A DNA stretch of 64,000 bases, from positions 62,001 to 126,000 of the forward strand of contig NZ_BJCC01000006.1 of NCBI RefSeq assembly GCF_004309355.1, given 5' to 3'. Every line of letters begins with the position of its first letter. Position 1 is the stretch's first letter. Below are positions 16,290 to 21,542 of this stretch, piece after piece. The notes under the pieces are model-generated. The model did no database searches. It was not told the origin of the DNA and saw only the letters and a program-made list of their open reading frames with translations. Origin of the DNA: Enterococcus florum (GTDB taxonomy: Bacteria; Bacillota; Bacilli; Lactobacillales; Enterococcaceae). The translations under genes were made by a program, and so were the position numbers.

Positions 16290-18116
16290 GTGGCACAAAG
16301 GATTCCCCAAGAGGTGATCGATGAGGTCCGCAGCAAAACCAATATCGTGGAAGTTGTCGGGCAATATGTTCAATTAAAAAAGGCCGGAAAGAACTATTCA
16401 GGGCTATGCCCATTTCATGAGGAGAAGACTCCTTCGTTCAGTGTTGCGGAAGACAAGCAGATGTTTTATTGCTTTGGTTGCGGCAAAGGTGGGAATGTTT
16501 TTACTTTTTTACAGGAATTGGAAGGGCTGAATTTTCCCGAGGCAGTCAAACGTGTGGCCGATCTTGAACAAATCCCATTGGCTTTTGAGATTCGTTCCGA
16601 ACCAGTTTCTGAAGTTTCCTCACAACAGCGGCAATTGCTTGCACTGCACGAGCGCGTCAGAGATTTGTATCATCACATATTGATGAATACGAAGGTCGGA
16701 GAAGAGGCGTTGAACTATCTTCATGAACGTGGATTGAACGATGAACTGATTGAAGAGTTTAACATCGGATTCGCACCAAACGAGCGTGGTTTTTTAGTTC
16801 AGGTATGTCAGCAAGACAAGATTGAAACAGCTGTGATGGAAAACAGCGGATTGTTCGTTCAACGTGAAGATGGAAGCTTCAATGACCGCTTTTATCAACG
16901 AGTGATGTTTCCTTTGAATGATCCTCGTGGTCGAACGGTTGGGTTTTCCGGACGTTTGTTGGTCTCAAAAGATTTTTCTGGAGAAAATCAGCCGAAGTAT
17001 TTGAATTCACCTGAGACAGAATTGTTTAACAAACGGCAAGTATTATTTAATTTTGACAAAGCGCGTAATGAGATCCGCAAACAAGGAGAAGCGATCCTGT
17101 TTGAAGGATTCATGGATGTGCTAGCCGCGTGGCAGGCCGGAATCAAGATCGGCTTGGCTTCGATGGGAACCAGCTTGACAGAACAGCAGATCCGTGCGAT
17201 CGAACGGCTCACCAGTCATGTCATATTGGCTTATGATGGTGATAGTGCTGGACTCACAGCTACGGAACGGGCGTTGAGGTTGTTGACAGACCATAGTCGG
17301 TTGCAATTATCCGCTGTAACAATCCCTGAGAAGCTGGACCCGGATGAATATTTAAGGAAATATGGTGCAGAGGAATTACGAAACCTGCTGCAGCATGGAA
17401 GACAGACTCCTTTTGTTTTCAAGATGAATTACCTTGAAAAAGGATTGAATCTCGAAAACGAAAATGATCGATTGATTTATTTGAATGAGTTAGTCGATGA
17501 GCTGGTAAAGGTTCAATCTCCGATGGAGCAAGATCTTTACCTAGGGCAATTGTCTGAGCGTTTTGATATCACTCGAGAAGGACTTAAGCAGCAGTTGAAA
17601 CAGGCAAGACGATCTCAGCGCTCTGAGCGCAGAGAACAACGCCAAGTGATAGATACTACTGCACCAGTACCACAAAAAAGCAGTCTCTCTATCGTTGAAA
17701 AGGCTGAAAGAATGTTGTTGTATCGAGGAATGAATGAACGTAGTGTTCGCGAACGATTGGTGCAAGATGAGGTTCAATTCGTGCACGATCAATACCAGGA
17801 ATTGCTGCTTCACTTAGATAGTTATATGATGGTTCATGATCAATTTGTTTTAGCAGATTTTCTGAACTATTTACAGGAAGACTCAATGAAACGTTTAATC
17901 ATTGAGATTTCCGTTTTACAAATGTCAGAGGATAGTACGGAAGAGGAAATCTATGACTTAATGCAGGTGATCTCGCAGGCTGGCATCGCTGATGAAATCA
18001 AAAAACGACAAAAAGAGCAGCTGGAAGCCAGAAAAGCTGGAAATCAGCAAAGAGAATTAGAATTAACAATCCAAATTATCGAACTGACGAAGCGCTTGAA
18101 ACAAGCCGAAATGTGA
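16290..18116 (+). CDS. dnaG: DNA primase DnaG
   Basis: 608 residues from the GTG. The N-terminal CHC2 zinc-binding domain ([13 protein letters not shown] ... [10 protein letters not shown]), the TOPRIM core ([20 protein letters not shown]) and the C-terminal helicase-binding region are all present. It makes RNA primers for replication. The GTG at 16290 is preferred because GGGGTGAT lies immediately upstream and overlaps the ATG at 16284; the product then begins [13 protein letters not shown], the usual N-terminus of enterococcal DnaG as I recall it. The stop lies 17 bases before the rpoD ATG, so the two form the conserved macromolecular-synthesis pair. Confidence 0.96.
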
Positions 18117-18133
18117 AAGGGGCATTTTTATTT

Positions 18134-19243
18134 ATGGCAGATGTAAAAACCAACAAAGAATACCAAACCGCTCTAGCAGCCTTTATCAAGGAGAAAAAAC
18201 CATTAGGTCAAGTTGTTTATGATGAGTTGACCAATCGGATGGCGACACCTTACTCTTTGAATGCCGAAGCGATGGATCAATTGATCCAAAAAGTCGAAGA
18301 TGCTGGAATCAGCGTTGTTGACGAGAACGGCGAGCCTTCAAAAGCAAGCCTAAAACAAAATGAGAAAGCTGCAAAGGCTGCAGCTGTCGAAGATTTGTCT
18401 GCCCCTACTGGAGTAAAAATCAATGATCCCGTTCGTATGTATTTAAAAGAAATCGGACGTGTTCCTTTATTAACAGCTGAAGAAGAAGTCGAATTAGCTT
18501 TATTGATCGAACAAGGAGATCAAGAAGCAAAACAACGTTTGGCTGAAGCCAACTTACGTTTGGTCGTAAGTATTGCAAAACGCTATGTCGGACGCGGTAT
18601 GCAGTTTCTTGATCTGATTCAAGAAGGCAATATGGGATTGATGAAGGCTGTTGAAAAATTTGATTACCGTAAAGGTTTTAAGTTTTCTACCTACGCAACC
18701 TGGTGGATTCGCCAAGCCATTACGCGAGCAATCGCTGACCAAGCTCGAACGATCCGTATCCCTGTGCATATGGTCGAAACGATCAATAAACTCATTCGAG
18801 TGCAGCGTCAATTATTGCAAGATCTTGGAAGAGAACCTACACCAGAAGAGATCGGAGCTGAAATGGATCTCCCGACTGAAAAGGTACGTGAGATTTTAAA
18901 AATTGCTCAGGAACCTGTTTCTCTGGAAACACCAATTGGTGAAGAGGATGATTCTCATCTAGGTGATTTCATCGAAGATCAAGAAGCAACCAGTCCAGCT
19001 GAACACGCAGCGTCTGAGATGCTGAAGGAACAATTAGAGGATGTACTGGATACATTGACGGACCGCGAGGAGAATGTATTGCGCTTGCGTTTTGGATTAG
19101 ACGATGGCAGAACACGCACCTTAGAAGAGGTTGGTAAAGTCTTTGGCGTCACTCGTGAACGGATTCGTCAGATCGAGGCGAAGGCATTACGTAAATTGCG
19201 TCATCCCTCTCGTTCGAAACAATTAAAAGATTTCTTAGAATAA
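18134..19243 (+). CDS. rpoD: RNA polymerase primary sigma factor RpoD (SigA)
   Basis: 369 residues. Region 1.1 is at the N-terminus, region 1.2-2.4 includes [16 protein letters not shown] and [15 protein letters not shown], and region 4.2 includes [19 protein letters not shown]. It directs transcription from the -35/-10 promoters seen throughout the window. The ATG at 18134 follows AAAGGGG; a GTG at 18113 overlapping the dnaG stop would add seven residues and is less likely. A 16-bp-stem terminator follows directly. Confidence 0.97.
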
Positions 19244-19254
19244 GCATTCACGGC

Positions 19255-19295
19255 AGATCAAGAGAAAGTCGTCAGACTTTCTCTTGATCTTTTTT
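19255..19295 (+). terminator. Strong intrinsic terminator after rpoD
   Basis: A perfect 16-bp stem with the four-base loop GTCA, followed by a T run. Confidence 0.96.
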
Positions 19296-19562
19296 CTAGC
19301 TATTTTTTCACAAAGAAAATAGGCAGTACACAAATGATACATTTCAAATATATTGAAAAAAATTATTAATGCATAAGCAGTTATTAATTATTGAGTAATA
19401 ATCAAATTATATTTTTAACAACCCGACAAAATCACTTATTTCCCTTTAGAAAGTAATTTTCCGCTTTTCCTTGTTTTCATGAAAAAGCGTAGAATACATA
19501 TTGGAAGTGTTTTAATAATATGTTAAATTAAGGACTGAGAAAAGGGAAAGGAGTCGATTAAA

Positions 19563-20639
19563 TTGCATAGATGTCCAAATTGTGGTTTTGAGTTGGAAGA
19601 TAAGATTTTTGCAGCTTCCAATGAACATCCTGTCTCATTTAAAAAAAGAGAGACAGATGTATTGACTTACTTAGAACAGACAGCGAGCGAAAGCGAATGG
19701 CTCGAATTGAGTCGGATGCCGGCAGGTTTTGTTGAAGATCCCTCCCATTCTAAAGACTCTCCGATAAAGATAGACACTGACAGATTTGCCGATGAGTTTG
19801 AGATCAACCCTGTATTAGCCAGATACATTCAGGAACATAAAGAAGCTGAGAAAGTTGCACAAAAACTGGCGCATGAAGATACAAAGAATGACTTGTTTTC
19901 AAGAAAGGCTCCGGAAATACAAAATCAACCTGTCAAACAGACGACGAAAAAAAGGCGCCGAAAGAAATCTTTGATTGTATTATGTATGGCTGTGTTATTA
20001 CTTGGCGGATCAGGGTATTACGTCTACCAAGCGAAAGAGGCTGAGGCCCAACGGATCGCTGCTTTAGAAAAGGACAATAAAGCTTGTGATCAGGTTGAGA
20101 AGAAGATCAAGCAATTCTATTTGGATCAAGATCAGACGTACGTCGATCCAGAAATGGTTTGGCAAGATCGAGAAGCATTAGAAAAAGAGTTAAAACAAGT
20201 AAAGGACACGAAGCGTTATGATCAGTTAAAAGCTTCCTATGACCGATTAGTTGAAAAGACTGAGCAATTGAAGGAAGTCAACTTCCTATTTACTCATCGA
20301 GCAATTCAGGGAGACGAGCTTTCATCTGAAATGACACTAAAAAGAGACATGCCTGTTAATCTGACGGTTGATACAGGAGATGAAGCGTTTGATCAACTTT
20401 TAAACGAGGCTGTTCGTCAAGCCAAAGAACAATATCGTCAGTTGGACGAGGCAAAACAAAAAACAGCATTGCTTTATCAAGGGGAAAAAGTCAACGCAAG
20501 AGTGACACGTGAACAATATGATCAAGCAGCAGCAGCAGTCAAGGAAGTCAAAAATCAGCAGCTTGTGAAGGTACAAAAACAACAGCTGGCTGCTGTCGAT
20601 CAGTTTTTAACCGAGACGGAAGAATACACGATAGAGTGA
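19563..20639 (+). CDS. Zinc-ribbon, single-pass membrane protein; possible MapZ-like division protein
   Basis: 358 residues. An N-terminal zinc ribbon begins CPNCGFELEDK, but no second CxxC pair is obvious. A charged cytoplasmic region (about 10-135) ends in the basic stop KKRRRKK, then one membrane helix (about 139-158), then a mostly helical extracellular domain with Gln- and Lys-rich coiled-coil stretches. The layout (cytoplasmic N-terminus, single helix, extracellular helical bundle with FTHRAIQGDELSSEM) resembles the first extracellular domain of the division-site protein MapZ; this is recognition from memory. The start is TTG with AAAGGAGTCGATTAAA ahead. It stands between rpoD and cvfB with its own terminator. 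Confidence 0.6.
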   Translation: MHRCPNCGFELEDKIFAASNEHPVSFKKRETDVLTYLEQTASESEWLELSRMPAGFVEDPSHSKDSPIKIDTDRFADEFEINPVLARYIQEHKEAEKVAQKLAHEDTKNDLFSRKAPEIQNQPVKQTTKKRRRKKSLIVLCMAVLLLGGSGYYVYQAKEAEAQRIAALEKDNKACDQVEKKIKQFYLDQDQTYVDPEMVWQDREALEKELKQVKDTKRYDQLKASYDRLVEKTEQLKEVNFLFTHRAIQGDELSSEMTLKRDMPVNLTVDTGDEAFDQLLNEAVRQAKEQYRQLDEAKQKTALLYQGEKVNARVTREQYDQAAAAVKEVKNQQLVKVQKQQLAAVDQFLTETEEYTIE

Positions 20640-20644
20640 TCGAT

Positions 20645-20672
20645 AGCCAGGGCGGTCGACCCTGGCTTTTTT
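20645..20672 (+). terminator. Intrinsic terminator
   Basis: AGCCAGGG-N7-CCCTGGCT with a T run, six bases after the preceding stop. Confidence 0.93.
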
Positions 20673-20687
20673 AAAGGAGAGAAGAAA

Positions 20688-21542
20688 ATGGACGAATTAT
20701 TAGGACAAGTTTTTACAGCACTTGTCATGGATGAAAATGAGACACATTACTTTGTGCAGAAAAATGGGGTGACCTTTCGTCTATCCAAAGAAAAAGAGTT
20801 GGCGATTGGAGAGATGGTCGAAGGATTCGGCTATGTTAACCAAAAAAAAGAAGCGGTGTTTACTTTAGAAATTCCTCAAGTTCGCGTAGGCCATTTTGCC
20901 TTTGGTGAGGTAACTGACGTTCGACGAGATTTAGGTGCATTTGTCGATATCGGTCTTCCTGACAAGGATATGGTGGTTTCTCTCGATGAAATGCCGACGA
21001 TGAAAGAGCTTTGGCCCAAAAAGGGTGATCGATTGATGATCAGCATTCGTGTGGATGAAAAGGATCGCATGTGGGGAACTTTAGCAGACGAGACATTGTT
21101 TCATTCGTTAAGCCGCAAAGGCAGTGCTGAAATGCAGAATGAAAACAAAAAAGGAACGATTTACCGTTTGAAGGTAGCTGGCAGTTTCTTGATCACGGAA
21201 GACTTGTATCTCGGATTTGTCCATCCTTCTGAACGGTATGTAGAACCTCGATTGGGTGAGGTAGTCGAGGCTAGAGTGATCGGAGTGAGACCAGATGGTG
21301 TGTTGAACATGTCTCTCAAACCACGATCCCATGAAATGATCAATGATGATGCTGCTATGATTTTAACGATGCTTGAACGAAACAGTGAACACAAACTACC
21401 TTATTGGGACAAGTCCTCTCCCGAAGAGATCAAACAATTCTTTGGCATCAGTAAAGGACAGTTTAAACGAGCAATCGGTCATTTATTGAAGGAAAAACGG
21501 ATTGTCCAAGAGAATGGATCGATACGATTGAAAACTAATTGA
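20688..21542 (+). CDS. cvfB: S1-domain RNA-binding protein CvfB
   Basis: 284 residues of the CvfB (YitL) family: S1-like modules with GEVTDVRRDLGAFVDIGL near residues 72-90 and a second around 150-215 (VVEARVIGVRPDGVLNMSL), and a C-terminal winged helix (about 220-284) with FGISKGQFKRAIGHLLK. In Staphylococcus CvfB affects virulence gene expression and binds RNA. AAAGGAGAGAAGAAA precedes the ATG. It is a single gene between two terminator or promoter regions. Confidence 0.9.
   Translation: MDELLGQVFTALVMDENETHYFVQKNGVTFRLSKEKELAIGEMVEGFGYVNQKKEAVFTLEIPQVRVGHFAFGEVTDVRRDLGAFVDIGLPDKDMVVSLDEMPTMKELWPKKGDRLMISIRVDEKDRMWGTLADETLFHSLSRKGSAEMQNENKKGTIYRLKVAGSFLITEDLYLGFVHPSERYVEPRLGEVVEARVIGVRPDGVLNMSLKPRSHEMINDDAAMILTMLERNSEHKLPYWDKSSPEEIKQFFGISKGQFKRAIGHLLKEKRIVQENGSIRLKTN

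Follow-up and report, generated by a model that had tools for sequence, protein, structure and literature searches.

In oval bacteria, the site of division is set by the protein MapZ. Residues 17-43 of pneumococcal MapZ bind FtsZ and residues 45-68 form a membrane-touching helix (PMC7055233), and EC2 of the same protein binds peptidoglycan (PMC4931243). Pneumococcal MapZ without extra2 is spread over the membrane, with a ring that persists at the constricting septum; EC1 is treated as a pedestal for EC2, and the same work asks why EC1 folds stably by itself (PMC4931243). Most enterococci are said to conserve MapZ (PMC4931243), it was found in representatives of Lactococcus and Enterococcus (PMC12203958), and a mapZ homolog of E. 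faecium has been named (PMC13014144). Among the papers listed by our searches of the literature, mostly as titles and abstract starts, none reports a natural duplicated or EC2-less MapZ, although an earlier report may exist in print. As far as searched, a genome that holds an EC2-less MapZ copy and, at another locus, a complete one is new.

The protein described here, referred to as short MapZ, resembles S. pneumoniae MapZ/LocZ (PF18041 plus PF18708) in its predicted single-pass architecture with a cytoplasmic N-terminus, in the profile and fold of EC1 (2nd9, subdomain 1), and in cytoplasmic motifs alignable to rows of the streptococcal type. Unlike S. pneumoniae MapZ, it lacks EC2 and the serine linker, its FtsZ-binding-like region is eroded, it carries half of a zinc ribbon (any ribbon: 0/14 streptococcal-type rows), and its genome holds a second, complete copy. 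The engineered pneumococcal mapZ without extra2 likewise keeps EC1 and misses EC2; however, that gene is the only copy there (PMC4931243), whereas short mapZ is natural and has a complete paralogue.

An EC2-less MapZ paralogue between rpoD and cvfB

The window, which is the whole stretch of 64,000 nucleotides of Enterococcus florum DNA that was analysed, encodes short MapZ at 19563..20639 as an open reading frame of 358 aa with a TTG start. All features given below with window positions are located on the + strand. A putative ribosome-binding site of the Shine-Dalgarno type, AAAGGAG (19547..19553), is found 9 nt 5' of the TTG. The gene lies downstream of rpoD (18113..19243, Sigma70 domains), as the preliminary description had placed it, and upstream of cvfB (20688..21542, CvfB domains), with an ordinary gap of 48 bp to the latter. 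The CPNC start, the charged cytoplasmic part, the KKRRRKK before one helix and the helical outer domain that had been described are all present at 19563-20639, the last of them as modelled. KKRRRKK corresponds to residues 129-135, preceded by the charged cytoplasmic part and followed by a single hydrophobic stretch, the transmembrane stretch at residues ~136-155 (19968..20027), also covered by helices of the AlphaFold2 model. Short MapZ is accordingly predicted from its sequence to possess one membrane helix and a cytoplasmic N-terminus. Terminator-like sites are predicted after rpoD (16-pair stem and T run, 19255..19290) and immediately 3' of short mapZ (20645..20667), so that the gene looks like a unit of its own. 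Promoter prediction over 18900-21000 gave 4 promoter-like sites against 3.8 expected in shuffles, and none of them stands out.

The search with the Pfam profile MapZ_EC1 (PF18041), proposed in the preliminary description as a check, returned a match over residues 159-286 (20037..20420) with an E-value of 2.6e-30 and 105.8 bits against a cut-off of 33.1, far above chance level; one part of the refuting outcome named in that description, the absence of a MapZ profile match, did not occur. The NCBIfam equivalog NF047909, by its name a streptococcal model, with 474 positions, reached 39.1 bits against a cut-off of 700 (E 4.1e-10). No match to MapZ_C2/EC2 (PF18708) was detected in short MapZ, either in the profile search (E up to 10) or in the genome search. 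Short MapZ belongs to the MapZ family; because EC2 was tested for and is absent, it is not MapZ proper. The proposal of an enterococcal MapZ counterpart stands as regards the family and the locus, and falls as regards an ordinary counterpart, since EC2 is missing and a complete MapZ is encoded elsewhere. What the usual enterococcal mapZ locus encodes here is a MapZ paralogue devoid of EC2, and we hold its identity together with the domain loss to be nearly certain. A zinc-ribbon membrane protein of the TcaA/YvbJ type was also considered; no such family matches short MapZ (profiles, E up to 10), although absence from that list proves nothing by itself.

The AlphaFold2 model, built from 17 aligned rows, has block-mean pLDDT values of 92-98 over residues 171-350 and values below 50 for nearly all of residues 1-152, the part in which the half ribbon falls. 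Helices were modelled at 137-144 and 150-183, with low confidence up to residue 152. The top Foldseek match of the model is 2nd9 (E 2.2e-3, probability 1.00, target TM 0.69, rmsd 2.4, 114 columns), with no match reaching E 0.001. The same entry, MapZ subdomain 1, is the sole match of the PDB search by sequence (weak, E 0.2). It is also the top match of VIA-align (Z 10.5, rmsd 4.1, 129 residues aligned; next row Z 8.7), where for helical bundles a Z below ~13 may reflect a mere common arrangement. The Z of 10.5 is support, not proof, and the MapZ identity rests on the profile match. Similarity to the Cry-toxin domain fold was only weak (Foldseek E > 2; VIA Z 7.5-8.7, rmsd 10.9-12.9). The C-terminal helical hairpin at residues 316-357 (20508..20633) aligns with enterococcal MapZ; it is a well-modelled continuation of the enterococcal EC1, and neither the Pfam match to EC1 nor the alignment with 2nd9 extends over it.

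In all 17 named enterococcal loci, including those of E. pallens, E. avium, E. raffinosus, E. malodoratus and E. mundtii, rpoD is found upstream and cvfB downstream of a complete MapZ with an EC2 ending and two CxxC. Among 20 further loci of the family, which is taken from these names and the sequences to be Enterococcaceae, MapZ is flanked by both genes in 19 and by cvfB only in 1. Short MapZ occupies this same rpoD-mapZ-cvfB slot. It shares the slot, EC1 and the helical hairpin with the complete MapZ of E. pallens (L121) and E. avium (L130), with identities of 38% and 35%, respectively, over the aligned parts. Unlike short MapZ, the 17 named relatives possess frames of 544-710 aa, two CxxC and EC2, and the complete enterococcal rows in the alignment of the family have long acidic linkers. 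Aligned with these relatives, the rpoD-linked copy lacks the second CxxC, so that only one half of the zinc ribbon is left. It also lacks the acidic cytoplasmic linker before the helix for the most part, and the outer linker plus EC2. It terminates at a domain border after the last EC1-side hairpin, and not within EC1.

In G014, a genome of the same genus (99% complete), rpoD adjoins cvfB with 137 bp between them (L084 2352-2490); EC1 matches only weakly there, EC2 gives no match, and mapZ is apparently missing. Four g30 genomes (one of them 88% complete) lack EC1 and EC2, and three others show nothing beyond a weak match to EC1.

The zinc ribbon and the cytoplasmic motifs

The CPNC at residues 4-7 (19572..19583) is the first half of a zinc ribbon. 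Short MapZ possesses this one CxxC only, with S19 and H22 in place of the second pair; the second CPxC is present in most of 16 named relatives (alignment A2), which agrees with the earlier suggestion that the ribbon may be half-lost. Two CxxC at the MapZ N-terminus were found in 43 of 44 rows of the family of short MapZ (complete copy counted, short gene excluded), in 10/10 rows of family f8 and in 1/1 of f5. Of the streptococcal-type rows (f3), 0/14 have them, in line with the lack of a ribbon that had been stated for streptococcal MapZ, with the reservation that the surveyed rows were chosen from strong matches and that all f3 rows carry one genus code. In total, 54 of the 55 non-streptococcal MapZ rows (short gene excluded) possess a two-CxxC ribbon, and L104 is the sole exception. 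From these counts by family, the ribbon is probably an old feature that was lost in the streptococcal line and half-lost in short MapZ. The survey also suggests that outside streptococci MapZ usually carries a cytoplasmic zinc ribbon, and that models based on streptococcal MapZ miss a part. The literature search found no paper linking MapZ with 'zinc ribbon'.

Two further cytoplasmic motifs were identified. The stretch EWLELSRMPAGFV (19695..19733) is the eroded counterpart of the conserved EWSEL motif, whose region aligns with the N-terminal region of the streptococcal type (in pneumococcus the FtsZ-binding residues 17-43), and NPVLARYIQEHK (19806..19841) corresponds to the conserved cytoplasmic helix motif. 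Matching regions of two streptococcal-type rows align with the EWSEL and NPILxxYIxEHK motifs of the enterococci, and both sides may do the same jobs. In the N-terminal region of short MapZ, the predicted FtsZ-binding-like motif is alignable but eroded.

Conserved columns, defined as those kept in at least 14 of 17 relatives, were counted in the short copy, in the complete copy and in the outlying G016. Over the transmembrane stretch and EC1, 76 of 132 conserved columns are kept in the short copy, 74 in the complete copy and 77 in G016. The corresponding numbers are 24 of 60, 37 and 42 for the cytoplasmic part, 6 of 15, 10 and 14 for the ribbon, 5 of 17, 10 and 14 for the EW region (residues 41-61), and 11 of 13, 12 and 10 for the NPxL helix (residues 78-96). 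EC1 is as well kept in the short copy as in the complete one, and the FtsZ-binding-like region is more eroded.

Both these counts and the codon-position figures cover the whole branch, pre-truncation time included, and their signature may predate the truncation; over helix plus EC1, changes specific to one copy at codon positions 1, 2 and 3 affect 0.35, 0.21 and 0.65 of the comparable sites in the short copy and 0.33, 0.18 and 0.64 in the complete copy. Positions 1+2 taken together differ from position 3 in the short copy (0.27 vs 0.65, p 2.6e-9) and in the complete copy (0.24 vs 0.64, p 1.3e-10). For the cytoplasmic part, the same comparison gave 0.43 vs 0.54 (p 0.23) in the short copy, or 0.42 vs 0.65 (p 0.0025) with the other reference pair, and 0.30 vs 0.36 (p 0.53) or 0.28 vs 0.47 (p 0.012) in the complete copy. 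In the cytoplasmic part, codon positions do not tell the two copies apart, and the claim of erosion rests on the column counts.

The complete copy and the history of the pair

PF18041 has three matches in the genome, corresponding to short MapZ, a complete MapZ of 481 aa, and a weak one in a different EC1-like protein. The complete copy possesses EC1 (1.1e-29), EC2 (4.5e-43) and two CxxC. It is located beside phoH and divergent from a run of genes, which from their sequences we take to be phoH, pgpH, ybeY, dgkA, era and recO. In five relatives, no mapZ was found within ~1.5 kb upstream of phoH. EC2 occurs once in this genome, in the complete copy; across the family it is present once each in 93 of 105 genomes and absent from 12. 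An EC1 above the cut-off was found in 95 of the family genomes, 93 of which also have EC2, each EC2 row matching the main EC1 row of its genome in contig and frame length. Among the 105 family genomes, two EC1 matches above 50 bits occur in this genome only, and short MapZ is the only EC1 match above 50 bits without EC2. No second genome with two strong EC1 genes appeared among the matches listed (to E ~1e-16) for 395 genomes of the order.

Short mapZ is known from one genome, a draft of 73 contigs, and no second genome of the species was found. The single copy of rpoD speaks against contamination, which the genome table gives as 1.89%. A scan of genome contigs with the short MapZ protein alone as query gave no matches, and neither did the plasmid search.

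A tree of the helix and EC1 region (38 rows, 225 columns) places both copies inside the genus clade (99/97); the short copy branches off at the base of this clade, and the shortest path from the complete copy leads to G019/G004/G013. Both end branches are rather long (0.84 and 0.76 against a median of 0.22), and the row of short MapZ is unusual in its letter composition. Five neighbouring genes place the organism itself beside G019/G004/G013 (SH-aLRT 96), in a quick tree with XerD missing from 3 rows. It is possible, though we give this somewhat less than even weight, that the complete copy was acquired by transfer from another enterococcus and that the short gene is the native one, later reduced. 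In favour of transfer, the best tree does not join the copies as a sister pair and the complete one is nearest to G019/G004/G013 by path; nevertheless, AU tests rejected neither a tree with the copies held together (p-AU 0.139) nor one with both beside G019/G004/G013 (0.095), nor two further placements (0.276 and 0.10). These tests are compatible with both duplication and transfer, and transfer is itself compatible with other readings. Duplication versus transfer alters the history of the pair, not its anatomy.

Possible role of short MapZ

Judged by its domains, the complete MapZ beside phoH would bind the wall and mark the equators. Short MapZ would be held by one helix with EC1 outside; without EC2, it would not be held at the equatorial position of the wall. 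The analogy with pneumococcal MapZ-delta-extra2 suggests a protein that would be dispersed over the membrane and collect at the septum during constriction, where, with an FtsZ handle that may be weak or absent, it could act via EC1 alongside the marking complete MapZ. The retention of EC1 together with the erosion of the FtsZ-binding-like region points to action through EC1. Most likely, short MapZ is a septal accessory, or works with or modulates complete MapZ, and is not the main FtsZ beacon; for the septal role, the analogy is with an engineered mutant of another genus. On balance we lean slightly towards short MapZ being an EC2-less accessory MapZ, the natural counterpart of pneumococcal mapZΔextra2, and we rate a retained accessory function as about evenly balanced.

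The main rival is a decaying relic, which would have lost EC2, half of the ribbon and a large part of the FtsZ motif beside a complete copy and have little or no function. Several conserved parts are indeed lost, with the cytoplasmic conserved columns at 24/60, and the lack of mapZ between rpoD and cvfB in G014 of the same genus (137-bp gap) and of EC2 in 12/105 family genomes indicates that the function can be lost. Nonetheless, the gene retains 358 open codons, a Shine-Dalgarno sequence and terminator-like sites on both sides, EC1 is kept as well as in the complete copy, and the protein ends at a domain border and not inside EC1; we consider a relic unlikely, though a serious competitor. Short MapZ could also still position FtsZ alone, EC2 being dispensable in this organism, in line with the retention of E45, W46, L49, P53, V57 and most of the NPxLxxYIxEHK helix. 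This appears improbable, given that the EW region keeps only 5/17 conserved columns, that complete MapZ coexists in the genome, and that equatorial rings need EC2 in pneumococcus (PMC4931243). An assembly error, by which a misassembly or a sequencing gap shortened a complete gene, would be conceivable in a draft genome from a single source; however, the stop is followed by a terminator-like site and the ordinary 48-bp gap to cvfB, several separate parts are gone at once, and the genome has one EC2 only and a single rpoD, which makes such an error very improbable.

Returning to the accessory MapZ, a split of labour can be put forward tentatively, in which complete MapZ marks the equators via the wall and the EC2-less MapZ serves only the septal MapZ ring or tunes complete MapZ via EC1. 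A natural protein that has kept EC1 and lost EC2 beside an intact copy separates the two domains in evolution, and makes the question of EC1 testable. If the split of labour is true, the pair would show what EC1 does alone, which the pneumococcal work left open.

Candidates for a second EC2-less case were also inspected. The 377-aa EC1 frame of G277, another genome of the order, was rejected, as it is one of two overlapping frames, the second of which ends in EC2; in this genome (L080 5356-6989) the complete mapZ has a frame break between its cytoplasmic and outer parts, either real or an assembly error. G083 and G110, with EC1 over the cut-off and no EC2, have partial EC1 matches in another, cytoplasm-less protein type. 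The family repeatedly shows a separate type of membrane protein of ~280-380 aa, which lacks a cytoplasmic part and whose EC1-like domain is mostly weak. Similar to short MapZ, proteins of this size (L012:6156-7103, L017:6172-7149) possess a single helix, an EC1-like domain and no EC2; unlike it, they lack a cytoplasmic domain and ribbon, many have Ser-rich tails, and their PF18041 matches are mostly under the cut-off. The gene next to L012:6156-7103, in the same genome as short mapZ, encodes a class A penicillin-binding protein, and such a gene is also found close to L082:6318-7358, of the EC1-like type.
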